From Chromatiales bacterium (GTDB lineage: Bacteria; Pseudomonadota; Gammaproteobacteria; JAGRGH01), in NCBI GenBank assembly GCA_020445605.1, contig JAGRGH010000038.1:1-38905 (forward strand): a stretch of DNA of 38,905 nt. Direction: 5' to 3'. Positions 28,787-32,386 of this stretch are shown here, piece by piece; positions within the stretch are counted from its first letter, which is position 1, and every line of letters begins with the position of its first letter. The translations under genes were made by a program, and so were the position numbers. The notes under the pieces are model-generated. The model searched no databases. It had not been told where the DNA came from and saw nothing but the letters and a program-made list of their open reading frames with translations.

Positions 28787-29743
28787 TCAAAAGGCGGCGG
28801 CTTCGACCTCCAGATACACTCGACTGACATGCGCACCGAGGCGCAGGTCAAACCCGACCCAGTCGCGAAACCTGTCGACCGCCATCTCAACCTGCGGTTT
28901 CATCTCGAAATCCTCCGCACCCTCCTCATACAGACGCGCGACAGTCGAACGCACGCCATGTAGATAGTCACGGTACACGAGCGCAGTTTCGGCGCCGCCC
29001 GCGCGGCCGTGGCCCGGGATGTAGTGACGAAATCCACGCGCGACGATCTGGTCTATGGCCTCGATGTTGCCGGCGAAATCACTGTCCCCTTCCATGATGC
29101 CGAGCATGCCGTTGCGTACCACATCGCCCATGAACAGCACGTCCTCACCGACGATCTCGATCATGAGGTCGTTGTCGGTATGCGCCGAGCCGGTGTGCAG
29201 GATGCGAAACTGCACATCGCCAATCGTGAGCTCGTCCCCGTCACCGACCGCTTGATCCGGCGGTGTCAGGTTTCTGCCGTCCGCGGCGCCATCGGTCACA
29301 CGGTTGATCGTCGCGAGCCAGGCGTGGCCGTCATTGCCGGCGGCCTTCTCCAGCATGCGTGGATGTGCATGGATCGGCACGCCCGGATAGTGTCGACGCA
29401 CACCTTCGTTGCCGAGCCAGTGATCGCCGTGGGCATGTGAATTGAAGACCGCGACGATTGGCTCGCCCGGATAGCTTTGCGCACACACCCGCACGACCAT
29501 CTCGCCGGCCCAGGCACTGCCGCCAGGATCGAAGACCACCAGGCCGCCTGCGGTCCGCGTAATCACGACGTTGTTTCTAAATCCGCGATTGTTGCGATCC
29601 GGCAGGTCGAACGGCCCGTAGATCACTCCGACGCGATCGGTCACCGGTTCGACCTTCGGGAGCGGCCCGGCGACCGCAACGCCCGTTGCCGCCAGAGTCA
29701 CCCCGCAGACTGCAAGGAAAGCGGATGCCCTGACGCGGTTCAT
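28787..29743 (-). CDS. exported metallo-beta-lactamase-fold hydrolase, SoxH-like
   Basis: 318 residues with a signal peptide (about 1-26, ending VAVAG) and a complete MBL metal site: HAHGDH (His103, His105, Asp107, His108), His188, Asp207 and His245. The ATG overlaps the soxZ stop as ATGA, so it is the third gene of a soxY-like/soxZ/MBL operon. Periplasmic MBL proteins called SoxH occur at the end of some sox clusters, and related ones accompany PQQ dehydrogenase systems with SoxYZ-like carriers. Either setting fits; the substrate is unknown and no dehydrogenase or other sox gene is in the window. Confidence 0.85.
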   Translation of the reverse strand: MNRVRASAFLAVCGVTLAATGVAVAGPLPKVEPVTDRVGVIYGPFDLPDRNNRGFRNNVVITRTAGGLVVFDPGGSAWAGEMVVRVCAQSYPGEPIVAVFNSHAHGDHWLGNEGVRRHYPGVPIHAHPRMLEKAAGNDGHAWLATINRVTDGAADGRNLTPPDQAVGDGDELTIGDVQFRILHTGSAHTDNDLMIEIVGEDVLFMGDVVRNGMLGIMEGDSDFAGNIEAIDQIVARGFRHYIPGHGRAGGAETALVYRDYLHGVRSTVARLYEEGAEDFEMKPQVEMAVDRFRDWVGFDLRLGAHVSRVYLEVEAAAF

Positions 29744-30027
29744 GGCAGAACGGACTCGGCCGACCCGCTGTTGCCCGCGCTGTCGCGCCAATGCACGACC
29801 ACGCGCTGGCCGGAGCGGACCGGGCTCAGCACGACGCCGGTGATCGGATTGGCGGCAACGCCCGGACCCATGTAGGCCTCGGCCGAAACTTGGCCGTCGA
29901 CTTCGAAGCGCATGTGCTCGATGAACGCGGCCTTCGCATCTGCGCCGCCCATGGGATGGCGCACAAGCACGGTCACGCGGGCCTGTTCGCCACTCTTACG
30001 AACGCGCATCCTGGTATCGATTTTCAT
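29740..30027 (-). CDS. soxZ: SoxZ-family carrier subunit
   Basis: 95 residues of immunoglobulin-like beta structure with the SoxZ pattern: RVRKSGEQARVTVLVRHPM near the start, FEVDGQVSAEAYMGPGVAANP in the middle and VHWRDSAGNSGSAE near the end. It is slightly shorter than typical SoxZ. In thiosulfate oxidation SoxZ pairs with SoxY in the periplasm; lacking a signal peptide, it would be exported with a Tat-borne SoxY partner. GGAGGA lies seven bases before the ATG, the best ribosome site in this region. The gene is 27 bp after the soxY-like gene. Confidence 0.85.
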   Translation of the reverse strand: MKIDTRMRVRKSGEQARVTVLVRHPMGGADAKAAFIEHMRFEVDGQVSAEAYMGPGVAANPITGVVLSPVRSGQRVVVHWRDSAGNSGSAESVLP

Positions 30028-30054
30028 GTTCGTGTCCTCCGCTTGCGATCCGAT

Positions 30055-30513
30055 TCAGGAACCGAAACCGCTGACCGCCAGCTTTACGAGCCGGCGTCGC
30101 ACGAACACCTGCCCCCGCGAGCGCACATAGGCCGTCACCGCCGAGGTCTGGCGCAGCCGCACGGCGGTTTCAAAGACGCTGGCCGCGTCACGCATCGGCC
30201 GGTAGAACGCGCATAGCGGGCGTTCGTTGCCGGGCACCGTGATGGCAATGGCGTCCACATCGGCGAGTTCGGTGTGCACCTTCACGGTCACCTTCTGGCC
30301 GTTCGCGACCATCGGAAGGTCCAGTTCGATCTGGTCGGTGTTCTGTGGCTGCGCATCGCCGAACAGCGCACGCACGATATCCGGCTCCGTCGCGGCGCCG
30401 AATGCGGATTTCAGGTCAATGCCGCCGGTGCCGGCGATGCTCAGCACAGGGCGACTCGCCAGCAGGCAGGCCCCCGTGGCGAGCGATCCGAAAACAAAGG
30501 CTCTGCGATTCAT
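30055..30513 (-). CDS. SoxY-like protein lacking the substrate-binding cysteine
   Basis: 152 residues. A twin-arginine-like leader (MNRRAFVFGSLATGACLLA) is followed by the SoxY fold: IVRALFGDAQPQ, NGQKVTVKVHTEL and SAVTAYVRSRGQVFV. SoxY carries sulfur intermediates on a cysteine in a C-terminal GGCGG swinging arm. Here the protein ends SGFGS: codon 150 is TTC (Phe), read directly from 30064-30066. The flexible arm length is kept but the carrier thiol is gone; the only cysteines are in the leader and at 101. The ATG at 30513 has GGGGA seven bases upstream. It is the first gene of the operon and faces the regulator gene. Confidence 0.85.
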   Translation of the reverse strand: MNRRAFVFGSLATGACLLASRPVLSIAGTGGIDLKSAFGAATEPDIVRALFGDAQPQNTDQIELDLPMVANGQKVTVKVHTELADVDAIAITVPGNERPLCAFYRPMRDAASVFETAVRLRQTSAVTAYVRSRGQVFVRRRLVKLAVSGFGS

Positions 30514-30564
30514 GATGGTGTCCCCGAGTTGCCCGTCCACCGCGGACCGGGCTTGCGAATGACA

Positions 30565-30584
30565 CTAGCCAGCCGCTGGCCTAG
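30565..30584. promoter_or_regulatory. palindrome between soxY-like operon and regulator
   Basis: CTAGCCAGC-C-GCTGGC(C)TAG is a perfect GCCAGC/GCTGGC dyad extended by CTA/TAG arms with one bulged base. It lies 52 bp upstream of the soxY-like ATG, in the 151-bp divergent region, where an operator for the adjacent winged-helix regulator would be expected. No clear -35/-10 pair was identified for either direction. Confidence 0.5.
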
Positions 30585-30664
30585 ACTTGTCGAGAAACCC
30601 CGAAGGATTGCCGAAGAATTTATTGCGTCTTTTTAATCAGGGAGTTAGCAACCCGATTCTCCAC

Positions 30665-32386
30665 GTGGGCAGATCGAACGAACAATCCGGCGCAACCGCG
30701 AACGCAGATCAACGCGATCTCGCGGATGCCCTGCGCATTGCGGGCTGGGACGTCCACCCGGCCAGCAGCGAGCTGATCCGGGGCAGCAAGTGCCTGCGGC
30801 TTGAACCCAAGGTCATGGACGTTCTGGTGCTGCTCGCTCGCCATCCCGGTCAGGTGCTCACGCGCACCGAGATCGAGGCGCAGGTCTGGCCCAATGTCGT
30901 CGTCGGCTACGACACCGTCACCGGAGCGGTGCAGAAGCTGCGCAAGGCCCTGGGCGACAACCCGCGTGAACCGGCCATCATCGAGACGCTGCCCAAGCGG
31001 GGTTATCGCCTGATCGCCATGCCGGAGCCGATTGCACGGCAGACACCGGCCACGGCAACGGCACGACCAGAAAGTGCAGCGCCTTCACGCCCCCGCCCCG
31101 GACATGCGTGGCTGGCCACCGCGGTCGCCGTGATCGTTGCGGCGCTCGTGTGGTGGCAACTGCGGCCGGATCACACGCCCCCCGGCCCGCCGCCGCACGA
31201 ACCTGCCACTGCGTCCATTGCAGTGCTGCCGTTCGACAACCTCAGCGACGATCCGAAACAGAACTACTTTGCCGACGGGCTGACCGATGATCTGATCACG
31301 CTGCTGGCCAAGCAGCCACGGCTGCTGGTCATTGCACGCGATTCCTCCTTCATCTACCGCGGCCAGATCGACAACATCACCGAGGTGGCCGAACGACTCG
31401 GCGTGCGCTACCTGCTGCGCGGCAGCGTACGCCGGGTGGCCGATGAGCTGCGTGTGAACGCGCAGATGATCGACAGTCAGGATCGCGGACATGTGTGGGC
31501 CGAGCAGTACCAGCGAACGACCAATGACCTGTTCCGGATTCAGGATGCCATTGCCTCGAGTGTGGTCGCGGCCCTGTTGCCGAACGCCGACGAAACGATC
31601 AGCGCGGCCGTAACGCGCAGCGACGAACCCGCCGCCTACGATCAGTTTCTATATGGCCGACAGAGTTTTTATCTGTACGCGAACCGTAACGAGAATCGCG
31701 CGGCGCGCGAATTCTTCACCAAGGCGGTCGAGATCGACCCGGGTTTTGCCGGGGCCTGGGCCATGCTGGCGTGGACCCATGCATTTGATGCCATGAACGG
31801 CTGGGCGGACGATCGCATCCAGTCACTGACGAGCGCCTATGATCTGGCCACCCGTGCCATCGGGTTGCAGCCGGATCTTCCGGTCGCCTATTTCGTACGC
31901 GGTCTCAGTCACCGCGAGCGCGGCGACTACGTCAAGGCGCTGGTCGAGGCCGAGAAGGCGATCGAATACGATCCGAACTATGCGAACGGACACCTGCTGA
32001 CCGCGACGCTGCTGTATTACGCGGGGCGTCCCGAGGAAGGTCTGAAACGCATCCAGCAGGCGATGCGCATCAATCCGCACCACCCGTACAACTATCCGTT
32101 CCATCTCGGCCAGGCCTATTTCGTGCTGCACCGCTATGCCGAGGCGATCCAGGCGTTCAGGGACGGGCTGGTTTCCAATCCGGCCTCGGAACGCCTGCAC
32201 CTGTGGCTGGCGGCGGCCTATGCGCGTGCAGGCGCGATTGAAGACGCGAAGTGGGAGGCCGAACAGGTTCGCACGCTCAATCCCGAGTTCTCGCTGGAGC
32301 GCATCCGCACGGCCTTTCCATTCAAGGACCCGGCCGAACTCGAGCACTTCACCGGCGCCCTGGCCCTCGCGGGACTGGATGGCTAG
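30665..32386 (+). CDS. membrane one-component regulator: winged helix, TolB/FlgO-like domain, TPRs
   Basis: With the GTG at 30665, 573 residues: an OmpR/CadC-type winged helix at about 24-116 (LEPKVMDVLVLLARHPGQVLTR, then LRKALGD and LPKRGYRL), a Pro/Ala linker, one membrane helix (147-164), a TolB/FlgO-like N-domain (about 184-305, IAVLPFDNLSDDP and YLLRGSVRR) and TPR repeats (about 350-570). This is the CadC-like layout in which a periplasmic sensor controls a cytoplasmic DNA-binding domain through the membrane. The start is uncertain: the frame opens at TTG 30587 and has no ATG before the domain. It is divergent from the soxY-like operon and is its likely regulator, which is inference from position. 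Confidence 0.85.
   Translation: MGRSNEQSGATANADQRDLADALRIAGWDVHPASSELIRGSKCLRLEPKVMDVLVLLARHPGQVLTRTEIEAQVWPNVVVGYDTVTGAVQKLRKALGDNPREPAIIETLPKRGYRLIAMPEPIARQTPATATARPESAAPSRPRPGHAWLATAVAVIVAALVWWQLRPDHTPPGPPPHEPATASIAVLPFDNLSDDPKQNYFADGLTDDLITLLAKQPRLLVIARDSSFIYRGQIDNITEVAERLGVRYLLRGSVRRVADELRVNAQMIDSQDRGHVWAEQYQRTTNDLFRIQDAIASSVVAALLPNADETISAAVTRSDEPAAYDQFLYGRQSFYLYANRNENRAAREFFTKAVEIDPGFAGAWAMLAWTHAFDAMNGWADDRIQSLTSAYDLATRAIGLQPDLPVAYFVRGLSHRERGDYVKALVEAEKAIEYDPNYANGHLLTATLLYYAGRPEEGLKRIQQAMRINPHHPYNYPFHLGQAYFVLHRYAEAIQAFRDGLVSNPASERLHLWLAAAYARAGAIEDAKWEAEQVRTLNPEFSLERIRTAFPFKDPAELEHFTGALALAGLDG

Follow-up and report, generated by a model that had tools for sequence, protein, structure and literature searches.

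A SoxYZ-like pair lacking the sulfur-carrying cysteine is encoded in one operon with a secreted MBL-fold hydrolase

The stretch of DNA considered here (the window, 38,905 nucleotides from a Chromatiales bacterium) carries on its minus strand, from 30513 to 28787, an operon in which a soxY-like gene is followed by a soxZ-like gene and by a gene for a secreted MBL hydrolase, with a regulator gene reading away from it on the other strand. SoxYZ is the textbook example of sulfur carriage by a single cysteine, and it is this residue that the SoxY of the window lacks. The features are as follows:

30055..30513, minus strand: soxY-like gene, 152 residues, with the Tat signal NRRAFVFG, a SoxY fold and the C-terminus KLAVSGFGS
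30064..30066, minus strand: TTC codon of Phe150, at the position of the sulfur-carrying cysteine in a gapless arm alignment
29740..30027, minus strand: soxZ-like gene, 95 residues, without signal peptide and without cysteine
29926..29955, minus strand: site of the missing ExTGxRKD...IPAH loop in soxZ, reading HPMGGADAK-AAFIEH
28787..29743, minus strand: secreted MBL-fold hydrolase, 318 residues, metal ligands complete
30514..30586, no strand: intergenic spacer separating the operon from the divergent regulator gene
30587..32386, plus strand: CadC-type winged-helix/TPR regulator, divergent from the operon and paralogous to the one next to the genome's second SoxYZ

All three products pass their Pfam gathering scores, with 60.1 against 28.4 for SoxY (PF13501), 47.7 against 25 for SoxZ and 69.4 against 22.7 for Lactamase_B. 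A ribosome site, GGAGGA, lies upstream of the soxZ-like gene, the soxZ stop and the MBL start overlap as ATGA, and the in-frame codon adaptation of the three genes (0.62, 0.64 and 0.58, respectively) is like that of their neighbours, as opposed to 0.33-0.36 for soxY read out of frame. At this level the operon genes show signs of continuing constraint on their proteins. The hydrolase presents the complete superfamily motif HxHxDH, H, D, H, and its ligands (H103, H105, D107, H108, H188, D207 and H245) are invariant across 19 homologues, which bears out an earlier sequence-only reading of a periplasmic MBL with every metal ligand, coupled to soxZ.

The same reading had described a SoxY that keeps its Tat leader, fold and C-terminal arm but ends in SGFGS, with TTC as codon 150, and both parts hold. 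The phenylalanine sits on the cysteine column when the arm is aligned without gaps to other SoxY proteins, and the last 50 residues hold no cysteine at all. Counted from the preceding residue on, the arm VTIGGC is replaced by LAVSGF; the R of TRIK, 92% conserved, has become A, and AENG has lost its conserved E by deletion. Among the positions conserved to at least 85%, nine of 12 are kept outside the arm and one of four within it. The AlphaFold2 model of the single chain (mean pLDDT 84) has a confident core and a low-scoring arm, as expected for a mobile one, and its top Foldseek matches are the SoxY of Chlorobium, Paracoccus and Thermus (2nnc, 2ox5; TMt 0.86). The family search and C-terminal alignment that had been proposed place the protein in Pfam SoxY, without the cysteine: it stays below the canonical family TIGR04488 (73.9 bits against a cut-off of 125, with the arm AVSGFGS instead of GGCGG), it does not match TIGR04487, whose arm is AACIE, and the fused family TIGR04557 is likewise not matched (29 bits against 140 for the window SoxZ).

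The partner subunit had been called intact, and this is true of its full-length frame and Pfam match, but not of a conserved loop. A piece of nine residues is absent from the HPMETGxRKDxxTGxxIPAH region, and the P and H that follow it (94% and 77% conserved) are also replaced. Loss of the whole loop is unique to this protein among 178 SoxZ, with shorter loops in L025 and L184. The window SoxZ nevertheless retains most fold positions, and its predicted fold has a confident core (mean pLDDT 92); with the HPMETGxRKD...IPAH loop deleted, it reaches 51.9 bits against the 76 of the canonical SoxZ family TIGR04490. Judged from the protein sequences, then, the pair cannot carry sulfur on an arm thiol, as had been predicted, with F on the cysteine column and both subunits under the canonical equivalog cut-offs. 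Two simple ways around this conclusion can be considered. TGC and TTC differ by a single base, and a sequencing error could in principle have removed the cysteine; however, the changes extend to other arm residues, to the R of TRIK and E of AENG, and to the SoxZ loop, so that correcting one base would not make this SoxYZ canonical, and we regard an error as the least credible explanation of all. Alternatively, sulfur might be carried by Cys102 in RPLCAFY, the single cysteine that the mature SoxY retains; at this position A, T, V or I predominate in other SoxY. Such carriage is highly improbable, given that Cys102 falls in a predicted beta strand (100-104), off the mobile arm, at a position that is small or hydrophobic in relatives, suggesting burial.

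The rarity of such an arm was gauged on 191 distinct SoxY matches drawn from whole-genome searches of the class and the phylum and from named loci; two were fragments without the arm and were left out. In this non-random sample, where most loci had been picked for resemblance to the window SoxY or to the fused family, 186 of the 189 proteins compared have the arm cysteine, mostly as GGCGG and also as GGCS, GGCD, GGCA, NGCGG, GECI, GACG or AACA. It is absent from the window protein and from two others, found in G002:C10 and G001:C217. The former (L067:6207-7015) resembles the window in having lost the cysteine (to aspartate, in VVIGGDA) beside a SoxZ gene, and differs from it in its largely kept SoxZ loop, in its tree position and in the fact that no MBL was found adjoining. 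Two of the three cysteine-less SoxY thus adjoin a SoxZ; flanks read around the SoxY loci were mostly 1.5-3.5 kb, and within these an MBL lies next door to separate Y and Z genes only in the window. The third (L069:1192-1704) is a lone SoxY-like protein with an N-terminal hydrophobic segment and the arm ISVENNR, without an adjoining SoxZ. Another contig of the same genome (G001:C13, L068:7401-8440) has tandem SoxY genes, both with GGCGG, one of which extends C-terminally past the cysteine.

Further searches gave no close counterpart. In 369 genomes of the class and 398 of the phylum there was no orthologue of the window SoxY to show that the thiol-less form is conserved; nor was a second SGFGS-type protein found in these class and phylum searches. 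Plasmids held no SoxY relatives, a contig collection gave a single protein with an AACIE arm, and searches at the order level, centred on the carriers of the nearest MBL, gave no SoxY that lacks the cysteine. Among the openly licensed papers searched, none was found to describe a SoxYZ without the thiol. One survey built its phylogeny after filtering out every SoxY that lacked GGC (PMC11237559), and thiol-less forms are therefore absent from it by design.

A tree built on Y and Z combined groups the window pair, with a support of 99, with SoxYZ of families f110, f57 and f123, among whose loci several can be read as soxXYZA clusters, yet the placement is not firm owing to the length of the window branch. 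The long branch of the window protein, at 2.1-2.9 changes per column, also fits relaxed constraint. The main rival to the interpretation given below is decay: the SoxYZ pair would be a duplicate in the course of being lost, jobless without its cysteine, with the MBL as the only product of the operon that matters. That several near-invariant residues have gone together from both subunits speaks for decay, as does the long branch with no orthologue in the class and phylum genomes. On the other hand, the frames are full-length, the Tat signal and ribosome sites are in place and codon usage follows that of the neighbours; fold positions are kept, both predicted folds are confident, the losses cluster in the sulfur machinery, and genes in decay do not usually reach such a branch length free of stops and frameshifts. 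We consider decay unlikely, although it ranks next after the reading that we prefer.

With regard to the rest of the genome, it had been expected that soxAX and soxB would be missing, which proved wrong. A separate and complete Sox set is present: contig C50 encodes a canonical SoxX-SoxY-SoxZ-SoxA series with the GGCGG arm, SoxX and SoxA being named from cytochrome-like neighbours, and two SoxB score over the cut-off on separate contigs, C24 (L230) and C6 (L231). These enzymes make room for another explanation, in which the thiol-less SoxYZ acts as a decoy or brake by docking unloaded on SoxB or SoxAX. Binding of SoxYZ to SoxB in vitro survives the SoxY substitution C151S (PMC5336275), so that the SoxYZ body needs no loaded thiol to dock on a partner enzyme, and both SoxXA and two SoxB are encoded here to be docked on. 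Nevertheless, the arm has also changed on either side of the cysteine position, as has the SoxZ loop, and the operon pairs SoxYZ with an MBL instead of a Sox enzyme, which leaves this role improbable.

The genome also has a second unusual SoxYZ, on C40 (L066:17187-19819), with the arm SGGCS. It is divergent from a CadC-type winged-helix/TPR regulator 40% identical to that of the window, so that the control arrangement appears to be common to both loci. The third such regulator, on C63 (L229:5786-9913), is divergent from two genes typed by sequence reading as nitrilase/amidohydrolase; two of the three regulators of this kind in the genome therefore sit divergently beside a SoxYZ. A sister relation between the two pairs, suggested by these paralogous regulators, is left undecided by the trees, which neither support nor reject it (p-AU 0.42 for SoxY and 0.24 for Y and Z together). 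About 9 kb from the C40 SoxYZ lies an MBL 41% identical to that of the window.

As for the window MBL itself, its best NCBIfam matches, TIGR04558/4559, reach 103 bits against cut-offs of 300 and 280. The closest relatives, 59% and 55% identical, are found in G152 and G213, and no SoxYZ adjoins either of them. A conserved MBL-SoxYZ cluster among the relatives of this hydrolase was hence rejected, none being found.

Taken together, we tentatively prefer, at somewhat less than even confidence, an old extra SoxYZ that has lost its thiol chemistry and now serves as a non-covalent partner of the co-encoded hydrolase. The long-diverged pair would still fold and assemble, with SoxZ presumably exported through the Tat system as a hitchhiker on SoxY; covalent sulfur carriage would have been given up with the arm thiol and the SoxZ loop; and SoxYZ may instead contact the MBL made from the same transcript as its scaffold, stabiliser or substrate-presenting subunit, the operon probably being activated by the membrane-bound regulator of CadC type that is encoded divergently. 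Docking of the C151S form on SoxB favours this partnership, and so does the fact that the one chemistry on offer does not fit: in work on a Sulfurimonas strain, as cited by PMC11237559, SoxH may release sulfate from SoxY, a reaction that needs the arm thiol and cannot apply as such to the window. Support also comes from the coupled full-length frames with their Shine-Dalgarno sites and neighbour-like codon adaptation, from the confident subunit folds with losses concentrated on the sulfur machinery, from the other SoxYZ, SoxXA and SoxB available for thiosulfate, from the two regulators placed beside a SoxYZ and from the recurrence of an MBL beside SoxYZ in the quinoprotein-associated group. 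Against it stand the lack of a SoxY orthologue among the class and phylum genomes, the closest MBL relatives, which lack an adjoining SoxYZ, and the relaxed constraint that the long branch would equally fit. It is less probable, and on balance unlikely, that the window represents a whole class of thiol-less SoxYZ complexes that work without covalent sulfur, each being exported to serve its own dedicated periplasmic hydrolase as scaffold or ligand-binding subunit. If such a class exists, surveys that drop SoxY without a GGC motif, as PMC11237559 did, can miss it. A thiol-less SoxYZ-hydrolase operon in a genome that encodes a Sox set elsewhere makes it possible to tell partner binding by the fold apart from the role of the thiol.

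When compared with known systems, the window pair shares with canonical SoxYZ (TIGR04488/TIGR04490; PDB 2ox5, 2nnc, 4uwq) the Pfam family, the fold, a Tat-exported SoxY with a leaderless SoxZ and the soxYZ gene order, and differs in lacking the arm cysteine and the SoxZ loop, in falling under both equivalog cut-offs and in lying outside any soxXYZA cluster. The SoxY-related proteins with the AACIE arm (TIGR04487, e.g. L004) are also divergent SoxY with an altered arm, but retain the cysteine. Closest in arrangement is the quinoprotein-associated SoxYZ-like carrier (TIGR04557 with TIGR04558/9), which corresponds to SoxYZ-S2/S4 of PMC11237559 and PP_2677-2678 of PMC12997753; there too a carrier stands beside a periplasmic MBL, which often adjoins the fused genes, and both studies place these genes near PQQ dehydrogenases. 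Whether these carriers might also be cysteine-less had been asked, and the answer is negative, since all 20 fused carriers read keep the residue as GGCS. They are moreover one fused Y-Z chain, in contrast to the two cysteine-less genes of the window, and the MBLs beside them are only 21-25% identical to the one described here. A search of the genome with TIGR03075 as the quinoprotein family gave no PQQ alcohol dehydrogenase that reaches the cut-off; membership in a quinoprotein relay was rejected on this ground and on that of the cysteine kept there. With Y and Z separate, a distant MBL, no PQQ alcohol dehydrogenase above the cut-off and nearest MBLs without SoxYZ, the pairing in the window looks, from sequence comparison, independent of the quinoprotein one. 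The thiol-less operon bears on the role of the SoxYZ-like/MBL pairs near quinoprotein dehydrogenases.
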